A stretch of DNA of 64,000 nucleotides from a virus. Below, piece by piece: positions 11,765 to 64,000 of this stretch (position 1 is the stretch's first letter; the number at the start of each line of letters is the position of its first letter). The notes beneath the pieces were generated by a model. That model was given only the letters and a program-made list of their open reading frames with translations. It searched no databases and was not told the origin of the DNA. The DNA is taken from the IMG/VR virus record IMGVR_UViG_3300042731_004843, positions 1 to 64,000 of that record; one strand, 5' to 3'. Position numbers and translations under genes: made by a program.

Positions 11765-12291
11765 TGCCAGGACGTAAGAGCTATGGGCCGGGTGGAAAGT
11801 GGATCCATGATCGCGCCCACGGGTTGATGGATGAGCGCAAGAAGGGGAGCCTGACCGAGCGGTATGGGGACAAGAAGGGCAAGTCGATCGCCTACGCTAT
11901 CGCTACTCAACAGGCCCACAAGGTCGGTAAGAGCCCGAAAGGCTTCCGCACTACAGAGGGCGTCCGCGAGGCTAAGCAGAAGTTCGATAAGCCGAAGAAG
12001 GAGTACCAGAAGACGGCGGCTCGCACAGGACGCTTACTTAGGATGACGGATTCCATCGTCAGAAAAGGTGGAGATAAAGCTCCAGGCAAGCTGATAGATG
12101 CCGCCAAGAGACTCGGTAAAGCGGTTGAGCAGTCTAACGTCCGGCGTGGACTGGATACTGCGGAACAAGCAACCAAACACATGACCGATAAGCAGAGAAA
12201 CAATATCTTCATGAAGGCTATAGAGAATATGGGCAAGACCGGCAGCATTTCTTTGTCCTCCTTCTTTGATGAGCTGCAGCAGATCCAATGA
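11764..12291 (+). CDS. Basic protein with GKSIAYAIATQQAHKVGK motif and C-terminal tag
   Basis: A 175-residue strongly basic protein. Residues about 35-60 (YGDKKGKSIAYAIATQQAHK) match a motif I recall from small basic proteins of many phages, usually of unknown function. The last residues are SLSSFFDELQQIQ, the same motif that other proteins here carry near their N-terminus, now at the very C-terminus. The next gene starts in an ATGA overlap with this stop and carries FFGELEKIG at its own N-terminus. The charge suggests nucleic-acid binding, possibly packaged with DNA; this is inference. Confidence 0.8.
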   Translation: MPGRKSYGPGGKWIHDRAHGLMDERKKGSLTERYGDKKGKSIAYAIATQQAHKVGKSPKGFRTTEGVREAKQKFDKPKKEYQKTAARTGRLLRMTDSIVRKGGDKAPGKLIDAAKRLGKAVEQSNVRRGLDTAEQATKHMTDKQRNNIFMKAIENMGKTGSISLSSFFDELQQIQ

Positions 12292-12785
12292 GGCGAACCT
12301 TGACCACGACCATCAAAAGCTCGCTACCGGCATTCTTCGGTGAGCTCGAGAAGATTGGGCAAGCTCCGGGGTCATTAGCTCATCGGGCACAATTGGGCGC
12401 TCCGGGGGCCTGGGGCAGTCTGGGGTCGTCTGGTGGGGCCTCCTCTGGTGGGGCCTCCTCCGGTGGTGTTTCCCCGCCAACTGGGCCAGGAAGTAGCGGC
12501 GGAGCAGGGGCGAGCATGCCTAAGCCGCCGACGGCCGGAGAGATGGGGGGCGGGATGAGTGCTGCAGATCTGGGTCTTTCCGGCTCTAACCCCCCGCCTA
12601 TCCAGGCGCCCACCCAACCGCAGCAGCCCATGTCAGCTACCGGTACGCCGCCCCCAGGTGCACCGGCTACTGCGCCCGGGTCTTTGGCCAGTCCACAAAG
12701 GAAGAAGGGCTTCGGTACTGGTACACTATCGTCTGCTGAGAGCGCTGAGGTAGCCCCACCATCAGCATCTGAGTTTGGAGGCTAG
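12288..12785 (+). CDS. Tagged low-complexity Gly/Ser/Pro protein
   Basis: A 165-residue protein. Residues 1-25 contain SLPAFFGELEKIGQAPG, one of the clearest copies of the recurrent tag. Everything after about residue 30 is low complexity: Gly-Gly-Ala-Ser-Ser repeats (three near-identical GGASSGG units around nucleotides 12430-12475), then Pro- and Gly-rich sequence without predicted structure. A structured tag on a disordered chain is what one would expect of a virion-targeted internal or linker protein. No function is recognised. Confidence 0.7.
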   Translation: MRRTLTTTIKSSLPAFFGELEKIGQAPGSLAHRAQLGAPGAWGSLGSSGGASSGGASSGGVSPPTGPGSSGGAGASMPKPPTAGEMGGGMSAADLGLSGSNPPPIQAPTQPQQPMSATGTPPPGAPATAPGSLASPQRKKGFGTGTLSSAESAEVAPPSASEFGG

Positions 12786-12787
12786 TT

Positions 12788-13006
12788 ATGCTGCCCATGG
12801 TCAGCTTCTTCGAGGAGATGGAGAAGATAGCCCTCGTGGGCCCGCTTATCGGGCAGGCCGTCAAGTACCCAGGCATGGTAGGCTGGCGACTGCATCAGAT
12901 CGAAGAAGGTAAAGGCGCACACAGGCGCATGATGCAGAACATAGAGCGGGGCGTTCCCGCCGGTTGGGCGGCCCTGGGGATGCGTCCGAGAGATACCAGG
13001 CGATAG
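12788..13006 (+). CDS. Small tagged protein (SFFEEMEKIA)
   Basis: A 72-residue protein beginning MLPMVSFFEEMEKIALVGPL, the third tagged protein in a row. The remainder is a short amphipathic, basic sequence (GWRLHQIEEGKGAHRRMMQN). Because the tag takes up nearly a quarter of the chain, the tag itself must be a large part of what the protein does. It is followed after 16 bases by a strong ribosome site (GGAGGAATAG) for the next gene. Confidence 0.7.
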   Translation: MLPMVSFFEEMEKIALVGPLIGQAVKYPGMVGWRLHQIEEGKGAHRRMMQNIERGVPAGWAALGMRPRDTRR

Positions 13007-32821: not shown

Positions 32822-33094
32822 ATGCATGAGGCTAGTATGCAGGCGCTTCAAAGTGAGCTGGAGAAAATAGCCAAGACGAAGGGGAGCAGGCGCCTTGCGG
32901 AAGCTATGTTTGGTAGGCTTCGTGCAGCGAGGGGAGGCGGCGTTAAGGGCAGCGAAGTGGGCGCGTTCAGGAAGTTGCGTAGGGCGAACTACGGACCATC
33001 GGAAGCGGCGGGAGCTATCGATAAGGCTAGATGGCGCGGCGATCAGTACGTGAAGGTGCCTGAAGGTTACGGCCATCGCTACATAGATTTTTAG
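32822..33094 (+). CDS. Small basic tagged protein (LQSELEKIA)
   Basis: A 90-residue, strongly basic protein starting MHEASMQALQSELEKIAKTK, another clear copy of the recurrent tag. The rest is Arg/Lys/Gly-rich (RLRAARGGGVKGSEVGAFRK) and ends in an aromatic stretch (VPEGYGHRYIDF). The charge suggests nucleic-acid binding. It sits between two membrane proteins and just before the polyvalent protein that carries related motifs internally. Confidence 0.72.
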   Translation: MHEASMQALQSELEKIAKTKGSRRLAEAMFGRLRAARGGGVKGSEVGAFRKLRRANYGPSEAAGAIDKARWRGDQYVKVPEGYGHRYIDF

Positions 33095-33436: not shown

Positions 33437-36400
33437 ATGCGACTCAAGACCGCATTCGAGTGGGCGGCGACAGGACCCAACAGGGGTGAGCGCGTACACG
33501 ATGCTCCCGTACTGTGGCGGCCCGGCAAACTGAAGCGGTCGGATTTCCAACCTGCCGCAGGGATCAATCCCGATGTAGCCAGGGGTGTTGCTCGAGAGCC
33601 GCAAGAGAAGGTCTCCATATTCGATGGGGACGGTACCAAGCTGATGCCCCACCTACGCGCCATCCACAAGCTGGGCGGCATCTCTGCCAGTGAAGTGGGG
33701 ATTGAAGACCTGGACGGCTTCAAGACCACCGGCAGGCACTACGCCAGACAGGCGCAAAGGGCCTTTAGCGACAAGCCCGTAGATGCTGGTCCTGGCTACG
33801 GGGCAGACCACGAGAGCAATAGCACGGCCGGAGAAGGCAACGAGCCCGATACTTCAGGGGAAATTCCTATCGAGGATCCGCAGGACAGCACACCTCTGCG
33901 CGGACATCTACGTAATATCAGGGGGTTAAAGAAGCAGGGGGCTGGTGTGCTGTCTGGGGAGCTGCTGGCTGGGCTGCCCAGGATAGATGTCATCGCTGCC
34001 GAGCAACAGCGCCAGCTGCTATCCAGGGCCGTCCACGAGGCCCGTAGCCGCGGCGGGGAGCTCAGAGGGGCCCAGGAGCCCTCAGCTCTACCTCTGGCCG
34101 GTGAGGGGGCTCTAGAGGGCGCTCAGTATGTCAGGCTGTCAGAGGCCGATGTAGACGCCATCAATGCCCGCCTAGCCCGCCAGGCTATGGAGAAGAGTTC
34201 GAGTTGGGATCCGCGGCTCAAATCCGTCTCTGTGACTGGCTGCGTCAAACTGGCAGAGCCGGCGCCCCGTTTGCGCACAAAGCTATTGCCCCACCAAGAG
34301 CGGGTAGTTGAGAAGCTAAAGGGGCGGCCGGGACTGGTAGTGGCTCATGGGTTGGGATCGGGCAAGACGCTGAGTTCCATAGCCGCTGCTGTACAGCTGG
34401 AGCCGGACAGGACCAAGGTACTGGTTCCGGCGTCTCTCAGGGCCAACTACCAGAAGGAGCTGGACAAGCACGTAGAAGGTACCCTGCCCATAGAGGTGGG
34501 CTCTCTACAGGGTGCGGCCGCACGCGGGGAGGTGCCGCGTGCAGACCTACTGGTGGTAGATGAGGCGCACAGAGGCAGGAACCCGCAGTCCAAAACGTAC
34601 CAGATGATCCAAGGCGCCGAGGCCAAGAAGCGCCTGATGTTGACTGCGTCACCTACCTACAACCGGCCGTCTGACGTAGCCACTCTGGTAAACATGGCTG
34701 CTGGCGATAGGGTCATGCCCATGGGTAAGGCCTTTGATGAGCGGTACATCGCGCAGCCCAAGAAGGGTATCTGGGGCCTGCTCCCGTTCTCTAGAAAGCA
34801 GGAGGGCTTGAAGCGCAAGGGAGAGCTCGGCAAGGCTTTGTCGGAGTGGGTGGACTACCACAAGTCTGGGGGCAAGGGGTTTCCAGATGTGATGGAGGAG
34901 CGCCACGCGGTCAAGATGACCAAGCGCCAGACGCAGCTTCACGATGCTGCGTGGGGACAGCTCTCTTTGTTGTCCAAGATGCGTCTGCGCCGCGGGCTGC
35001 CTCCCGACAAGCAGGACCTCTCCAAGATCAACAACTTCCAGTCTCAGACCCGGCAGATCTCCAGTACTGAGTCGCCGTACACTAAGAAGGGGCGGGGCGA
35101 GGTATCTCCTAAGATCGTGAAGGCTGTAGGGCTCCTGGACACAGAAGCCAGGGCGAACCCTGATCACAAGGCGCTGGTCTACTCTAACTACTTGGGCACC
35201 TTGAGAGACTACTCTAAGGAGCTGGAGAAGCGGAAGGTGCCCCACGCCATATTCTCCGGCCAGCAAAAGATGCGGGACCGCAAGCAGATGGTGGAGGACT
35301 ACAACGCCGGCAAACTGAAAGCCCTGCTGGTATCGTCTGCTGGAGGGGAGGGGCTGGACCTGAAGGGCACCAGGCAGGTCCAGGTACTCGAGCCGCACTG
35401 GAACGTAGAGAAGCTGAAGCAGGTGGAGGGCCGGGCCATCCGCCGCGGTTCCCACACGCACCTGCCGAAAGACCAGCAGAAGGTACTGCTGCAGAGGTTC
35501 GAGTCCTATCCACGTGGAGGCATCTTCAGAAAGCGCCGCGGTGTAGAGCAGGTGCTGGGCGACATGGCTGCCAATAAGGAGAGGCTGAACCAGGAGATGC
35601 TGGGGCTGATGGAAAAGAGCGCAGAGCCACCACCCCCAGAAGGCGTCTCCGCCAAAGAGTGGGACGAGATACTGGACAACAAGGCCAGTAAGCCGCGTCC
35701 CCTGCCCGAGGTCATAACCAAGGACCGGCTTCGTGATCCTGTTGTCCAGCCACGCGACCTTATCCGGCGGCAGGAAACCCGGATGGAAAAGAGCGCGAAG
35801 CGCAAGTCCTGTTTTGATGAGTCCGTGAGAATAGCCGTAAAGAACCCACAGCTTACGCTAATGAAGGGGGATCCTTTCAAGGGCTCTGGAGACAGGGCCC
35901 ACTTCTGGTTGGAAGACAAGGACGGAAAGATCACCGACCCTACTGCGGGACAGTACCCGAAAAGTACGAGAGTCTATACGGGTGGACGACCAGTCAGCTT
36001 GAGTAGGAATCGTGATGCAGTAGAAAGAGCTCTGCAGAAAAGAGCATTCAAGCTGCAGGGACAGACCGAAGTGCAAGGCATTCCTGTAGCCATCGAGAAC
36101 CGCAAGGGGTCTGTACGGAAGGGCAAAGATCCGGACGGCAACGAGTGGCGTACCAAGATGCAGAACCCGTACGGGTACATCAAGGGCACCAAGGGAGCAG
36201 ATGGGGAAGAGGTAGATGCCTACGTGGGCCCGGACAAGGAAGCCCCCAAAGCGTTCGTCGTACACCAGCGAGACAAAGAGACCGGTGAGTATGACGAGGA
36301 CAAGGTCATGCTGGCCTTCAAGTCCAAGGCCGACGCCAAGAGAGCCTTTCTTGCACACTACGACAGCCCCAAGTTCCTCGGACCCATCAGTGCGGTACCC

Positions 36401-37093
36401 ATGGAGCGTCTGCGGGAGCTAGTAGAGAGCAAGAAGAGGCTGGTCAAGATCTCTTTCGCCGTGCCGGTTGTAGAGGACAAAGGTTACCAGAAGAAGGTAC
36501 GCCGGAGATTCGATAAACTGACCAAAGCGCTGGCACGTCACGGGGACCCAGTGGGCACAGGGCACAAGAGGATCGTCATCCCCAAGCGTGTTATGAAAGA
36601 GGATGACCTTGTTGGGCAGCTGGGGTTCGTTCCAGTCAAGGTGGCCATCCCGGAGGCCGGGCAGTCCCGCTTTGCCAGTTTTAGGCACCCGGACAATCTA
36701 TTCCACCTGCACGAGCACGGTGATGCGTGGGTCATGCACAAAGATGAGCACCCTGCGTCCACCATGCTGGTGAAGAAGTGGCGTATGGCCAGAGAGGCCG
36801 CTAAGAGCGCCACGGGCAAGAGTCAAGCTGAAGTGAAGGCGGCTCTCAAGGCTACGGGCGGGAAGCTCAAGCCGGTCGGGGATTTCATCAGAGGCCTGCC
36901 GCACGTGGTCACGGAGGGTGTTCCTGGAGCGTACTACTACGCCAAGGGGCAGATCTTAAAGACCAAGGGTATGCGGGAGAGGGTAGAAGAAGCTGTACCC
37001 AACGCGTACAAGCGCCAGGTGACGAAGTGGATAGAGCTAAAAAAGGCCGCAAGTGCCGGCTACGCCGATCTCGGTAGCCTAGTTCAGGAGTGA
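33437..37093 (+). CDS. Polyvalent protein: SNF2-type helicase, Cys-His-Asp hydrolase and pyrophosphatase-like domain
   Basis: A 1218-residue multidomain protein. Residues 1-245 have no known fold. About 275-700 is an SF2/SNF2-like helicase: Walker A GSGKT near 308-312, DEAH near 374-377, a helicase C part (LLVSSAGGEGLDLKGTRQVQ, VEGRAIRRGS). About 785-870 holds a putative papain-like triad, Cys792 (KSCFDES), His822 (RAHFWLED) and Asp834 (ITDPTAG). About 875-1000 resembles the InPase domain of phage polyvalent proteins (NPYGYIKGTKGADGEEVDAY). Motifs AMEKSSS (251), CVKLAEP (269), LMEKSAE (725) and RMEKSAK (783) fall at the module borders. Polyvalent proteins are thought to enter with phage DNA and blunt host defences. 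Catalysis and cleavage are inferred. Confidence 0.85.
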   Translation: MRLKTAFEWAATGPNRGERVHDAPVLWRPGKLKRSDFQPAAGINPDVARGVAREPQEKVSIFDGDGTKLMPHLRAIHKLGGISASEVGIEDLDGFKTTGRHYARQAQRAFSDKPVDAGPGYGADHESNSTAGEGNEPDTSGEIPIEDPQDSTPLRGHLRNIRGLKKQGAGVLSGELLAGLPRIDVIAAEQQRQLLSRAVHEARSRGGELRGAQEPSALPLAGEGALEGAQYVRLSEADVDAINARLARQAMEKSSSWDPRLKSVSVTGCVKLAEPAPRLRTKLLPHQERVVEKLKGRPGLVVAHGLGSGKTLSSIAAAVQLEPDRTKVLVPASLRANYQKELDKHVEGTLPIEVGSLQGAAARGEVPRADLLVVDEAHRGRNPQSKTYQMIQGAEAKKRLMLTASPTYNRPSDVATLVNMAAGDRVMPMGKAFDERYIAQPKKGIWGLLPFSRKQEGLKRKGELGKALSEWVDYHKSGGKGFPDVMEERHAVKMTKRQTQLHDAAWGQLSLLSKMRLRRGLPPDKQDLSKINNFQSQTRQISSTESPYTKKGRGEVSPKIVKAVGLLDTEARANPDHKALVYSNYLGTLRDYSKELEKRKVPHAIFSGQQKMRDRKQMVEDYNAGKLKALLVSSAGGEGLDLKGTRQVQVLEPHWNVEKLKQVEGRAIRRGSHTHLPKDQQKVLLQRFESYPRGGIFRKRRGVEQVLGDMAANKERLNQEMLGLMEKSAEPPPPEGVSAKEWDEILDNKASKPRPLPEVITKDRLRDPVVQPRDLIRRQETRMEKSAKRKSCFDESVRIAVKNPQLTLMKGDPFKGSGDRAHFWLEDKDGKITDPTAGQYPKSTRVYTGGRPVSLSRNRDAVERALQKRAFKLQGQTEVQGIPVAIENRKGSVRKGKDPDGNEWRTKMQNPYGYIKGTKGADGEEVDAYVGPDKEAPKAFVVHQRDKETGEYDEDKVMLAFKSKADAKRAFLAHYDSPKFLGPISAVPMERLRELVESKKRLVKISFAVPVVEDKGYQKKVRRRFDKLTKALARHGDPVGTGHKRIVIPKRVMKEDDLVGQLGFVPVKVAIPEAGQSRFASFRHPDNLFHLHEHGDAWVMHKDEHPASTMLVKKWRMAREAAKSATGKSQAEVKAALKATGGKLKPVGDFIRGLPHVVTEGVPGAYYYAKGQILKTKGMRERVEEAVPNAYKRQVTKWIELKKAASAGYADLGSLVQE

Positions 37094-37095
37094 TC

Positions 37096-37611
37096 ATGCG
37101 CGCTATCATCGTAGCACTCATTCTTCTGTGGCCTTGTATAGCTATTGCCGCAGATCAGTGCACCAAGCAGATCTACAGCGACCCCAATGTAGAGCCTGAC
37201 TACAGCTGCCCAGGTCCAGGCGAAGATGCCATGGTCCCCAAGATCCAGCTGAGGGCATCTGTAGAGCTCAAGGCTAAGCAGGCATCTCCCTGGTCGGGCA
37301 TCTTGATGGACAAGAACCGGGTGCTGGTTCTCGGTCTGCGTATCAAGGGCTTGCGCCGCATCAGGTGGCAGGAGAACAATACTTGCCGGGAGTCGTTGGC
37401 GGCAGAGAAGAAGTTCATGGAGGACTCGTTCAACGCCACGATCAAACTGCGTACTTCTCAGAGGGACAGCTACAAGGCACAGAATGTAGATCTGCGGAAA
37501 GAGATCGTACGCCTGAATAGATGGTACCGATCTCCCACCTTCTGGTTCGTCACTGGGGTCTTGGTGACGGCCGCTGGGGCCACGGCCCTGGCATACGGGT
37601 TGAGGAAGTAA
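37096..37611 (+). CDS. Exported membrane-associated protein, possible lysis role
   Basis: A 171-residue protein. ATG 37096 follows CAGGAG at a good distance; GTG 37090 is a poorer alternative. It has an N-terminal signal-like hydrophobic segment (RAIIVALILLWPCIAIAA) followed by Cys-containing sequence, a helical Lys/Glu-rich middle (about 98-140), and a C-terminal transmembrane helix (WFVTGVLVTAAGATALAYGL). The two hydrophobic ends with a periplasmic middle could span the envelope. It is the last gene of the + strand run, followed by a hairpin. Confidence 0.68.
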   Translation: MRAIIVALILLWPCIAIAADQCTKQIYSDPNVEPDYSCPGPGEDAMVPKIQLRASVELKAKQASPWSGILMDKNRVLVLGLRIKGLRRIRWQENNTCRESLAAEKKFMEDSFNATIKLRTSQRDSYKAQNVDLRKEIVRLNRWYRSPTFWFVTGVLVTAAGATALAYGLRK

Positions 37612-55644: not shown

Positions 55645-56535
55645 ATGGCTACCCACGAAGAGCAGCTGCTGGGCCTCCTGGAGAAGATAGGCCAGCCGGA
55701 AGAGACCACTGCCGAGGTCCCGTCTGTACTGGACGGGACCTCCAATGACGATCACGTCGAGACGTACGGCTCTTCCGAGGACCCCAACACGGAGGCTGAG
55801 CACGAAGAGCTGGCGGCAGCCAATACTGACCGGCAAGGGATGCCGGAAGGTGCGCTGTCCCCAGTCACGAAGCGGAACATGTGGGTGCATCACGACACCC
55901 ACCCGGTAACATATGATGTGGCCCTCCTGGGCACGTACGGCACAGACTGGTTTGAGTGGGAGCCCGGTACCCTCTGGCGTGAGATCAGAGAGGACTTCCG
56001 GGTACCCTCTATCAATGACCACGCCAAGGCCAAGATACAGGCGGCGAAGACGCTGCACATCAATGAATGGTACTGGACGAAGTGGGAAGTGTTCTGCTGG
56101 ATCACGCAGGCCTTGAACAACAATATCCCGGACTTCCATGTACTCCAGAAGCCTTCCATAGCGCAGCTGATGCAGTCTGTAGACGCCGCTACGATGGTAC
56201 GCAATGACGTGGAGTTCACCCCAGAGCTCCAGATGTTCGTGGCGGCTGCGATGGTAGAGTCCGGTGTATTCTATGCCCCGAAGCCCATAGACTTTTGCCA
56301 GGACGAGATCGAGACGCTGCTTGACGAGCTTCAGATAGATAAGAGCTTGATCGGGCAAGTACAGAGCAGGTGGCGAGAGGTGAAGCAGATCTCTCCAGAG
56401 GCGTGGGCGCGTTCTCCAGAACCCGTACTGCGGGAAGACGTGGTAGACATCCAGGTAGCCAAATTGAAAGTAGCGTGCGATTATCTGGATCTACGTCGTC
56501 GCCAACTGCAGGAGCAACTGAGGCTGCTCAAATGA
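55645..56535 (+). CDS. Tagged head-proximal protein (LLGLLEKIG)
   Basis: A 296-residue protein beginning MATHEEQLLGLLEKIGQPEE, the recurrent motif. An acidic linker follows (about 20-70: SSEDPNTEAEHEELAAANTD), then a folded region (WVHHDTHPVTYDVALLGTYG, NEWYWTKWEVFCWITQALNN) and a C-terminal helical part. It overlaps the next gene by 4 bases. Its position before the portal suggests a head or neck component; the fold is not recognised. Confidence 0.75.
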   Translation: MATHEEQLLGLLEKIGQPEETTAEVPSVLDGTSNDDHVETYGSSEDPNTEAEHEELAAANTDRQGMPEGALSPVTKRNMWVHHDTHPVTYDVALLGTYGTDWFEWEPGTLWREIREDFRVPSINDHAKAKIQAAKTLHINEWYWTKWEVFCWITQALNNNIPDFHVLQKPSIAQLMQSVDAATMVRNDVEFTPELQMFVAAAMVESGVFYAPKPIDFCQDEIETLLDELQIDKSLIGQVQSRWREVKQISPEAWARSPEPVLREDVVDIQVAKLKVACDYLDLRRRQLQEQLRLLK

Positions 56536-60841: not shown

Positions 60842-63800
60842 ATGGCGCGTCTTTCCCCGGAAGAGAGCTTCGAAATTCTCAAGGACCGGGTCGCAGAGAC
60901 AGTCGGCGGGCTCTTCCCGATCGTAGGGAAGAAGCACACACTGGAACTGGGACAGGTCGACGTCAACGACAGGCTTCATATAGACGACATCCGTTCACAG
61001 AAGGAGGCCAAGCTGGGTAGCCGGACTTGGGCCGTCCCTGTGGAAGCTAAGGTCGTCTTACGAGACAACGACACAGGCAAGAGGGTGGATGAGCAAAAAC
61101 TCCGCCTCATGAGCTTGCCCAAGCACACCAGGCGCTACTCCCACATCGTCGATGGCCAGGAGTACCAGATCGACAACCAGTGGCGGCTGAAGTCCGGGGT
61201 CTACGCTCGAGTGAAGGACAATGGGGAGCTGAAGTCAGAGTTCAACCTGGCCAAGGGCAGGGGCTTCAGCTTGGGGTTCGACCCCAAGAACCGCCAGTTC
61301 CACATGTCGTACGGCACCTCCAACATACCGCTGGCCCCGCTGCTGCAAGAGATGGGTGTGCCACAAGCCAAGATACAGGAGCAATGGGGCTCTGCTATTG
61401 CCCAAGAGAACGATAAAGACGTAGAGCAGGCAGTACTGAAGTTCTACAAAGCCTCTACGGGTAAGAAGGCGGACGACTACGAGCAGGCGCGGCAGTACAT
61501 GAAGGACACGCTGACCGCGACAGAGCTGCGCCCAGACACTACGAAGGTCACGCTGGGCAAAGGGTACAAGTCGGTGACTGGGGACGCTTTGATGGATGCG
61601 TCTACCAAGCTGCTGCGCATATCCCAGGGTAAAGCAGAGCCAGATCCCAGAGACTCCTTGATGTTCAAGGACCTGCACAGCACGGAGGACTTTTTCGCTG
61701 AGCGGATCCAAAAGAGTGGTCGGGACATCACCCGGCGCATACAAAACACTCTAGATCGGAAGAAGCGTGTCAGCGACATCGTCGGCCCGGACGTCTTCAA
61801 TCGCCCCATCAGGACTATGTACCGCACTTCCCTGGCGAATGTCCCAGATCAAACCAACCCCTTGGAGATGATGTCTGGGCAGATGAAGACCACCATCACA
61901 GGCGAGGGAGGCATCAAGAGTTCGCACGCCATCACTGAGGACGCCAAGCTAGTCGACCCATCACACCTCGGGTATTTGGATCCGATACACACGCCGGAGG
62001 GGGCGTCCACAGGCGTGTCCCTGCGCATGCCTATCGGCGTGAAGAAGAAGGGCCACGATGTCGCCGTCAAGATGTTCAACGTCAAGACAGGCAGACTGGA
62101 GGACGTCAATCCAGAGAAGGCCATGAACTCCACTGTCGTCCTGCCTGACCAAGTTAGGTGGCAGGACGGCAAGCCTACGCCGGCCGGCAAAACGATCAAG
62201 ATGAGTGGGCCAGGTAATGAGATCGTCGAAGGGCCCATGAAGCAGGCGGACTACATCATGCGGGACCCCATACAGATGTTCTCCATGGCATCTAATCTGG
62301 TCCCTTTCGTGGCAGCAGACCACCCGAACCGCAGCACCATGGCGGGGAGGCACATGGAGCAGGCAATACCGCTACAACGGCGCAAGGCCCCCTTGGTGCA
62401 GAGTGTAGCGGGCACCAAGACTTTTGAGCGGGTGATGGGTGATTACGCCGGCCACACCACGCGCTTTGCTGGGGAGGTCGTGGGAATCAAGAAAGACGCC
62501 GTCGTCATCAAAGGAGACGATGGCAAGAATCATGAGGTTCAGCTATACGATCACTTCCCACTCAACGACGATAAAGGCTTCCTCCACTCGACTCCTACGG
62601 TGAAGGTTGGGGACAAGGTTAAAAAGGGCCAGCCGATAGCGGACACCAACTTCACAGATGGTGGGGCCCTAGCTCTAGGCACCAACCTCAAAGTCGGATA
62701 CATGCCCTACAAAGGGTACAACTTTGAGGACGGCATCGTGATCAGTGAAGGTGCCGCAAAGGAGTTGTCCAGCGAGCACCTTTACCGCAAGACCCTACAA
62801 CGAGACCGGCAGCACGTGCTGGACAAGAAGAAGTACCAGGCGTACGCGCCAGATGCCGTAACTCGAGAGCAATCAGACAAGCTCGATGATGAAGGGGTCA
62901 TCAAGCCAGGGCAGGTAGTGTCTCCGGGTGATACCCTGATCGCCGCACTACGCGAGAAGAAGGACACCAAGGAAGATCGCGAGCTCGCACGTATCCACAA
63001 GTCTCTAGTCCGGCCGTACACTGATGCCAGCGTGAAGTGGGAGGCTGACCACCCGGGGGTGGTGCAGGAGGTGGTAAAGAAGGGCAAGAAGTTGGCTGTC
63101 CACGTCAAGACTTTGGAGGCCGCTGAAATCGGGGACAAGATCGCCGGCCGTCACGGCAACAAAGGCATCATCACGAGCATTTTGCCGGATGACGAGATGC
63201 CACAGACCAAAGACGGCAAACCACTACAGATTCTGATGAACCCCACTGGCGTGCCCGGCCGTACTAACCTCGGCCAAGTGCTGGAGACGGCTGTCGGCAA
63301 GATAGCTGAGAAGACTGGTAAGCCGTACACGGTCAAGAACTTCCAGCCTAATGAAGATCTACACGCCAAAGTTACCGCAGATCTGAAGGCGCACGGGCTA
63401 CCTACTGACGGAAAAGAAGAAGTCGTGGACCCAAAGACCGGTAGGGTTTTGGGCAGGATCCTGACGGGGCCACAACATGTGGTCAAGTTGAAGCACCAAG
63501 TAGAGAAAAAGATGATCGCCAGGGCTGGTGGACCTGGCTATGCGTATGACAGGAACCTGGTACCCAAGGGAGGGGGCCCGCACGGGGCGCAGGCTTTGGG
63601 CACTCTCGGCCTCTACTCCATGCTGGCGCATGGCGCTAAGGCCAACTTGAGGGAGATGCAGACTCTCAAGAGTGACGCAGGCCAGAGTGATGAATTTTGG
63701 GCCGCCCTACAGGCTGGGGAAGCGCTGCCGGCGCCACGTCCCACGTTCGCGTACAAGAAATTCACCAGCTATCTCAACGCGCTAGGGGTCAACGTTAAGA

Positions 63801-64000
63801 AGGACGGCAACAATCTCTCACTCATCCCGTTCACCGATAAGCAGGTGGAGGAGATGAGTAATGGGCAGATCAAAGACGCAGCCAGGATGGTGCGGGCCAA
63901 GGACCTACGCCCAGAGACTGGAGGGCTGTTCGATCCCAAGACCACTGGCGGTGTTGACGGTACGAAGTGGAGCCACATTCGTCTGGCCGAGGCTATGCCC
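60842..64000 (+). CDS. RNA polymerase beta subunit continuing into beta-prime (fusion, 3' partial)
   Basis: 1053 residues are visible, open at the window end; ATG 60842 has GGAG upstream. Beta hallmarks are in order: RYSHIVDGQEYQIDNQWRLK near the fork region, HLGYLDPIHTPEG, YNFEDGIVISE (the Glu-Asp near the active centre, about 626-637), GRHGNKGIITSILPDDEMPQ with its two Lys (about 769), and HGAQALGTLGLYSMLAHGAK. After about residue 975 it reads FTDKQVEEMSNGQ, then GGLFDPKTTGG and HIRLAEAMP. These match the start of beta-prime, but the zinc-binding part between them is missing. The beta part is shorter than bacterial beta. It is a catalytic core for a phage multi-subunit polymerase; the beta-prime Asp triad lies beyond the window. 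Confidence 0.9.
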   Translation, partial: MARLSPEESFEILKDRVAETVGGLFPIVGKKHTLELGQVDVNDRLHIDDIRSQKEAKLGSRTWAVPVEAKVVLRDNDTGKRVDEQKLRLMSLPKHTRRYSHIVDGQEYQIDNQWRLKSGVYARVKDNGELKSEFNLAKGRGFSLGFDPKNRQFHMSYGTSNIPLAPLLQEMGVPQAKIQEQWGSAIAQENDKDVEQAVLKFYKASTGKKADDYEQARQYMKDTLTATELRPDTTKVTLGKGYKSVTGDALMDASTKLLRISQGKAEPDPRDSLMFKDLHSTEDFFAERIQKSGRDITRRIQNTLDRKKRVSDIVGPDVFNRPIRTMYRTSLANVPDQTNPLEMMSGQMKTTITGEGGIKSSHAITEDAKLVDPSHLGYLDPIHTPEGASTGVSLRMPIGVKKKGHDVAVKMFNVKTGRLEDVNPEKAMNSTVVLPDQVRWQDGKPTPAGKTIKMSGPGNEIVEGPMKQADYIMRDPIQMFSMASNLVPFVAADHPNRSTMAGRHMEQAIPLQRRKAPLVQSVAGTKTFERVMGDYAGHTTRFAGEVVGIKKDAVVIKGDDGKNHEVQLYDHFPLNDDKGFLHSTPTVKVGDKVKKGQPIADTNFTDGGALALGTNLKVGYMPYKGYNFEDGIVISEGAAKELSSEHLYRKTLQRDRQHVLDKKKYQAYAPDAVTREQSDKLDDEGVIKPGQVVSPGDTLIAALREKKDTKEDRELARIHKSLVRPYTDASVKWEADHPGVVQEVVKKGKKLAVHVKTLEAAEIGDKIAGRHGNKGIITSILPDDEMPQTKDGKPLQILMNPTGVPGRTNLGQVLETAVGKIAEKTGKPYTVKNFQPNEDLHAKVTADLKAHGLPTDGKEEVVDPKTGRVLGRILTGPQHVVKLKHQVEKKMIARAGGPGYAYDRNLVPKGGGPHGAQALGTLGLYSMLAHGAKANLREMQTLKSDAGQSDEFWAALQAGEALPAPRPTFAYKKFTSYLNALGVNVKKDGNNLSLIPFTDKQVEEMSNGQIKDAARMVRAKDLRPETGGLFDPKTTGGVDGTKWSHIRLAEAMP

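Follow-up and report, generated by a model that had tools for sequence, protein, structure and literature searches.

Why does one long protein of an uncultured phage carry closely similar lysine-centred strings at the borders of its modules? The question is raised by a gene for a polyvalent protein in the virus record IMGVR_UViG_3300042731_004843 (G000; the query phage in what follows). Bases 1-64000 of this 108,145-base record of an uncultured virus make up the window, i.e. the whole stretch presented here, and the remaining 44 kb were examined as well. We propose, with a probability of about 0.63 and on comparative grounds, that the product of this gene is a polyvalent polyprotein packaged in the head, with predicted cuts between its modules by the phage's own maturation protease. 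We start from four observations: there is a motif, it is confined to head proteins, it is conserved at module borders, and it occurs together with a candidate protease. The strongest statements that they allow are statistical and comparative; chance was estimated from shuffled copies of the protein (n=300) or of linkers (n=2000).

Motif sites at the borders of the modules

A preliminary description of this DNA had singled out five strings of the polyvalent protein (AMEKSSS, CVKLAEP, LMEKSAE, RMEKSAK and KKAASAG), placed them at module borders and taken them for sites cut by a phage protease. All five strings are present, at positions that were right to within one residue. They do sit at module borders, because the Pfam matches to the SNF2 helicase fall at residues 285-671 and the match to InPase, a pyrophosphatase domain, at residues 871-995, between the sites. 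Two further sites had been overlooked: LQKRAFK directly before InPase and LVKISFA directly after it (the coordinates of all features are given in Table 1). As is expected of a polyvalent protein, several domains of disparate activity are present (SNF2 helicase and InPase by Pfam; a relative with C92 amidase and DUF5661). The N-terminal region, the Cys-His-Asp module and the C-terminal region have no Pfam match, and the limits of the Cys-His-Asp module were judged by eye for this reason. No viral relative of this module was found in the relatives search, nor any meaningful match in a search of the sequences of solved structures; only three viral relatives of the helicase were found.

The strings are more frequent than the composition of the protein predicts. 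There are 3 copies of EK[ITLAS][AS], where shuffling predicts 0.40 (3 is reached in 2 of 300 shuffles), and 2 of EKSA, where it predicts 0.04 (none of 300 shuffles). The protein's own linkers have 6 copies of phi-x-K-x-[AS], with 1.9 expected, a count reached in 20 of 2000 shuffles. The AlphaFold2 model was restricted to residues 722-1218, because the full-length alignment misaligned the C-terminal halves of the helicases. In this model K727, K785, K868 and K1004 lie within or border low-confidence segments, while the predicted local distance difference test (pLDDT) score of the InPase core is 88-97.

Conservation of the sites in relatives

Relatives were taken from contigs sharing terminase or InPase sequence; the terminase scan gave 43 related contigs. 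The closest homologue (L066/L086, 562 amino acids) aligns with query residues 3-255, 725-782 and 865-1008, and is devoid of both the helicase and the Cys-His-Asp module. At the first junction it reads ALEKRS-MAKQAEPPPP, where the query reads AMEKSSS...CVKLAEP, the helicase and then LMEKSAEPPPP; at the second junction it reads QRLEKRAYELQG, where the query reads RMEKSAK, the Cys-His-Asp module and then LQKRAFKLQG. Therefore, each inserted module left the motif at both its junctions. Other modules lie between sites in other relatives: L094 has C92 amidase and DUF5661 there, and L067 has a glycosyltransferase-like region. In six polyvalent relatives, where domains account for 46% of the residues, 25 of the 26 sites fall outside them (p 2.6e-6, with some of the limits set by eye). 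The linkers of six polyvalent proteins contain the motif 23 times against 7.0 expected, and none of 2000 linker shuffles reaches 23; R, E, D and reversed controls in the same linkers are at or below expectation.

The border that follows InPase provides a control with other phages. There K-x-[AS] is found in 13/13 proteins of the phage group (the query and 12 relatives) against 2/18 InPases of other phages, the two positive controls being a near-identical pair; for the strict form phi-x-K-x-[AS] the figures are 11/13 against 0/18. The check proposed in the preliminary description, whether the sites are conserved between modules in homologues, thus comes out in its favour at this border. The candidate protease described below is present in 10 of 29 records, namely seven that have an InPase of the phage group and three helicase relatives; none of the 18 controls has it. 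A further record of the group, the fragment L091, did not show it either, but its near-identical partner L092 has it. In InPase homologues from phages without the candidate protease the sites are mostly missing.

These alignments bear on the idea that the repeats are recombination scars, marking the insertion of modules at short repeated DNA and having no function at the protein level. The DNA of LMEKSAE and that of RMEKSAK are identical at 18 of 20 nucleotides, and the insertions lie exactly at the sites, as this idea predicts. However, AMEKSSS, LQKRA, LVKIS and CVKLAEP have the protein motif without that 20-nucleotide repeat, the sites after InPase persist in relatives without inserted modules, and the InPase border sites are already conserved at the protein and not at the DNA level. 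We consider such an origin very improbable.

The motif in the head proteins

The likeness of the sites to a tag, ELEKIA, had been noticed in the preliminary description, and the same motif does run throughout the head-gene block. From 52 conserved sites the profile [LMIF]-x-K-[TLEVI]-A-[SAEG] is obtained. The 36 head-block proteins contain 33 copies of [LIMVF]xK[ITLASVM]A (9.0 expected) and 16 of EK[ITLASVM]A (2.5 expected), and the overall enrichment in the head proteins of the query phage is 3- to 6-fold. Elsewhere [LIMVF]xK[ITLASVM]A is close to expectation (5 against 5.2 in the other late genes, i.e. tail genes; 5 against 3.7 in early genes). No enrichment is found in the head block when the K of the motif is replaced by R or by E, or when the motif is reversed. 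As phi-x-E-x-A is near expectation and the enriched anchor is K, the glutamate specificity of the T4 type is not found here. The gene of the polyvalent protein sits among tail genes and yet carries the head-type motif, which suggests that its product resides in the head.

At N termini the motif takes the form of tags (FFGELEKIG, SELEKIA, YQEIEKIA, MADELEKIA, HGEIEKIA), although it is often internal too. Short proteins have it N-terminally, and of 63 late proteins 8 do so, against 0.55 expected. A tagged open reading frame (ORF) of 72 amino acids begins MLPMVSFFEEMEKIALVGPLIG, a tag and then a hydrophobic stretch, and could easily be missed by gene callers. When head proteins of 20-35 relatives are aligned, many K-x-[AS] sites persist amid flanks with a conservation of only 30-50%; for instance, the site at position 320 of the protease protein is present in 24 of 24 sequences with a flank conservation of 0.31. 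The site of the major capsid protein was set aside as evidence from conservation, its flanks being equally conserved (0.88).

The excess extends to cultured phages. The capsid protein and the protease of the query phage have counterparts of low identity in Salmonella phage Arash and in Vibrio phage D181; phi.K.A occurs 38 times in the head genes of Arash and 36 times in those of D181, against 5.8 expected in each, and their other genes show no excess. In phage G the signal is weaker and not specific to the head (10 against 3.5 in head genes, 8 against 2.8 in others).

Could linkers rich in K, A, S and E have produced the motif by accident? The linkers are indeed charged and of low complexity, and the motif read backwards, A.K.phi, shows a mild excess in Arash head genes (12 against 5.8). 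This explanation is nevertheless scarcely credible in view of the linker shuffles of the six proteins and the R, E, D and reversed controls given above, and it is disfavoured also by the InPase border comparison and by the position of nearly all sites outside domains.

A candidate head maturation protease

The prohead protease gene, which the preliminary description sought outside the window, has a candidate at 76994-79039 of the record. Among its orthologues, 11 of 14 match phrog_18299 (head maturation protease; E up to 1), the best with E 2.7e-7, and the first member alone gives an E of only 0.48. The histidines H120/H121 and the residues DVSMG..C, which include the serine S177, are invariant across the 14 orthologues, so that the Ser and His of a predicted active site are conserved. 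In L062, L035 and L060, inteins of about 386-391 amino acids lie directly after DVSMG, adjoining the predicted catalytic serine; inteins are commonly located at active sites. Pfam yields nothing convincing for this protein, and the search of solved-structure sequences gave no meaningful match.

A model of the L023 orthologue (moderate for residues 72-270, poor elsewhere; mean pLDDT 51) was compared with known structures by VIA-align. T4 gp21 (5jbl) ranks first over 124 aligned residues, with a root-mean-square deviation of 3.7 and a Z of 6.2, which is below the level that the tool calls secure; herpesvirus assemblin ranks lower in the list. We take the resemblance of the modelled fold to gp21 as supportive rather than as proof, because Foldseek by itself is not significant (E 0.27). 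Motif sites are located on both sides of the protease domain in the query, Arash, D181 and phage G, as expected if the protease trims itself in the manner of gp21.

A cutter might also be sought inside the polyvalent protein, which would then process itself in cis: the Cys-His-Asp module would be a papain-like peptidase, or a metallopeptidase would be embedded, as proposed for other polyvalent proteins. The spacing KSCFDES..AHFWLEDKDGKITDPTAG does resemble a Cys-His-Asp triad, and embedded peptidases belong to the published model of polyvalent proteins (PMC5512222). But L066, L071, L067 and L093 are without the Cys-His-Asp module and have the same linker sites, the motif is found genome-wide in head proteins, and no embedded metallopeptidase domain (a feature common, though not universal, in polyvalent proteins) was detected by Pfam. 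Self-processing seems improbable to us.

Cutting or docking

According to the polyprotein reading, the polyvalent protein would enter the phage head as one chain, and a serine-type head maturation protease of gp21-like fold would recognise [LMIF]-x-K-x-A/S and cut in the linkers. The predicted products are the SNF2 helicase, the Cys-His-Asp module, InPase and one further piece from each end of the chain; they would be freed before or during DNA packaging, and the free modules would be injected. The cut would take place at the motif, the exact bond lying either after K (as in the L/I-x-E of T4) or after the A/S two residues on. Short terminal forms of the motif (e.g. FFxELEKIA) may act like the capsid targeting sequence of T4, bringing cargo into the prohead and then being clipped.

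The main rival is a tag which is not cut: phi-x-K-x-A would be a short helix binding the scaffold or the shell and thereby docking proteins to the head, and the modules would be formerly separate tagged proteins, now fused. The N-terminal tags of the short proteins are easily explained in this way, and so are the junctions, since the fusion of tagged genes would leave one tag at each of them. Several copies in one scaffold-like protein fit cutting better, as do the sites that flank the protease domain on either side in four phage lineages and a site near the N terminus of the capsid protein. An uncut tag appears unlikely to us, while docking and cutting may both hold, because the T4 targeting sequence is itself clipped (PMC9026906).

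Several points weigh against the cutting of a packaged polyprotein. Apart from the two structure-comparison scores given above, a C-terminal tail with the KIS site is retained in the stand-alone InPases of L087 and L091, and the conservation of KIS together with LLDEL in such tails suits a packaging tag too. Some copies of the motif in head proteins belong to repeats or conserved folds and not to linkers (the UBA-like repeat of Arash gp223; the RNA polymerase motif GDKIAGRHGNKG). In the literature searched, there are no cleavage data for the query phage or its cultured relatives and no report of a lysine-based phi-x-K-x-A motif for a prohead protease, and searches on the EKIA motif, phage Arash and a lysine-type head protease yielded nothing relevant.

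Comparison with known systems

Known prohead proteases cut after L/I-x-E (T4 gp21), S/A-x-E (phiKZ) and A-x-E (SPN3US gp245) (PMC9026906, PMC10052503). As in these systems, the motif of the query phage is short and places a hydrophobic or small residue two positions before a charged anchor; sites are many in the scaffold and few or one in shell and cargo, and the protease gene is near the capsid gene. A gp21-like fold of the candidate protease would be a further likeness. The query phage differs in its anchor, a lysine followed two residues later by A or S, whereas theirs is glutamate. Furthermore, known prohead proteases remove terminal propeptides or shred the scaffold, while the sites of the query separate several enzyme modules within a single chain. 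By analogy, the query phage may work like a T4-type system with another specificity. The earlier claim that a phage protease cuts these sites as in T4 and phiKZ is thus supported, as a prediction, by the conserved border sites and the candidate protease; the likeness to those systems has to be amended at the anchor residue.

The polyvalent proteins of Iyer et al. (2017), P1 DdrB among them, also combine several unrelated enzymatic domains, including InPase, in one late-gene protein. Processing by embedded metallopeptidases was proposed for them, and an analogy with the polyproteins of RNA viruses was drawn (PMC5512222); here the candidate cutter is a separate head maturation protease. With the T4 capsid targeting sequence, which sends cargo into the prohead, the tags share a short N-terminal segment ending in a protease site, which in our case is predicted. 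Their sequence is different (FxxELEKIA type), they also occur at C termini and between domains, and their targeting role is putative.

Neighbouring genes and other features

A small protein is encoded 3' of the polyvalent gene (window 37090-37611; counterparts in L066, L068, L071 and L075), with a signal-peptide-like start and a conserved YSDPxxEPxYxCPxPxEDxxVP. The scaffold-like Arash gp223 (L083 16485-17252) contains a repeat of about 37 amino acids, LEKAAAVNxLIxxGxxFxEAVELVKEAS, which resembles a UBA-type mini-domain and is bracketed by the motif. An ORF of 2052 amino acids (window 60842-64000, continuing to 67000 of the record) carries EIGDKIAGRHGNKGI, the RNA polymerase beta subunit signature; it is highly conserved (58-80%) in relatives. 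The K-x-A of this RNA polymerase-like protein was discarded as a site, being an enzyme motif. Finally, for many relatives (L043-L046, L050-L052, L055) the terminase matches end or begin at residue 115 or 413 of the query, which suggests inteins or other insertions.

Table 1. Features of the polyvalent gene, tagged proteins and candidate protease (window coordinates unless otherwise stated)
Feature	Position	Strand	Basis or remark
Polyvalent protein gene, 1218 amino acids	33437..37093	+	ORF; SNF2-rel_dom, Helicase_C and InPase by Pfam
Site AMEKSSS, residues 250-256, end of N-terminal region	34184..34204	+	aligned with ALEKRSM of closest relative
Site CVKLAEP, residues 269-275, start of helicase module	34241..34261	+	K-L-[AS] precedes helicase also in L002, L003, L004
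SNF2-type helicase module, residues about 281-722	34277..35602	+	without counterpart in closest relative
Site LMEKSAE, residues 724-730, end of helicase module	35606..35626	+	aligned with SMAKQAEPPPP (L066/L086), VKLAEPPPP (L071), IKKAEPGPPPG (L075)
Site RMEKSAK, residues 782-788, start of Cys-His-Asp module	35780..35800	+	pLDDT < 50
Cys-His-Asp module, residues about 790-862	35804..36022	+	limits by eye; absent from closest relative
Site LQKRAFK (K868)	36032..36052	+	counterparts LEKRA, LLKIA, FRKLA, VLKMA in relatives
InPase domain (PF18823), residues 871-995	36047..36421	+	E 1.4e-43; high pLDDT over core
Site LVKISFA (K1004)	36440..36460	+	K-x-[AS] in 13/13 of phage group, 2/18 controls
Motif-like AAKSATG (K1123), C-terminal region, weaker candidate	36797..36817	+	motif match
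Site LKKAASA (K1203), near C terminus	37037..37057	+	string LKKAASAG starts at residue 1201
90-amino-acid protein, N-terminal tag SELEKIA, same late cluster as polyvalent gene	32822..33094	+	ORF and tag
165-amino-acid protein, N-terminal tag FFGELEKIG	12288..12785	+	tag
72-amino-acid ORF, N-terminal tag FFEEMEKIA	12788..13006	+	tag
296-amino-acid protein, N-terminal LLEKIG	55645..56535	+	motif
Candidate head maturation protease gene	76994-79039 of G000, outside window	–	phrog_18299 profile; model resembles gp21 (supportive)

Significance

In place of the statement that polyvalent proteins might be processed, we obtain a concrete prediction: the cutting enzyme, the residues and the resulting pieces. 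The motif can also serve to pick out, from sequence, the head-packaged and probably injected proteins of a large and mostly uncultured phage group; because this rule holds for a cultured Salmonella phage too, it is directly testable. If the reading is true, a protease family whose known members are specific for glutamate would gain a lysine-based specificity, and phages would have a counterpart to the polyproteins of RNA viruses. The broadest statement is one for which we see about even odds: large tailed phages of a widespread group, which extends from the uncultured group of the query to Arash of Salmonella and D181 of Vibrio, would use a lysine-recognising head protease both to shred the scaffold and to split a packaged polyprotein into injected enzymes, an in-capsid strategy into which new modules may be plugged if a cut site is kept at every border.

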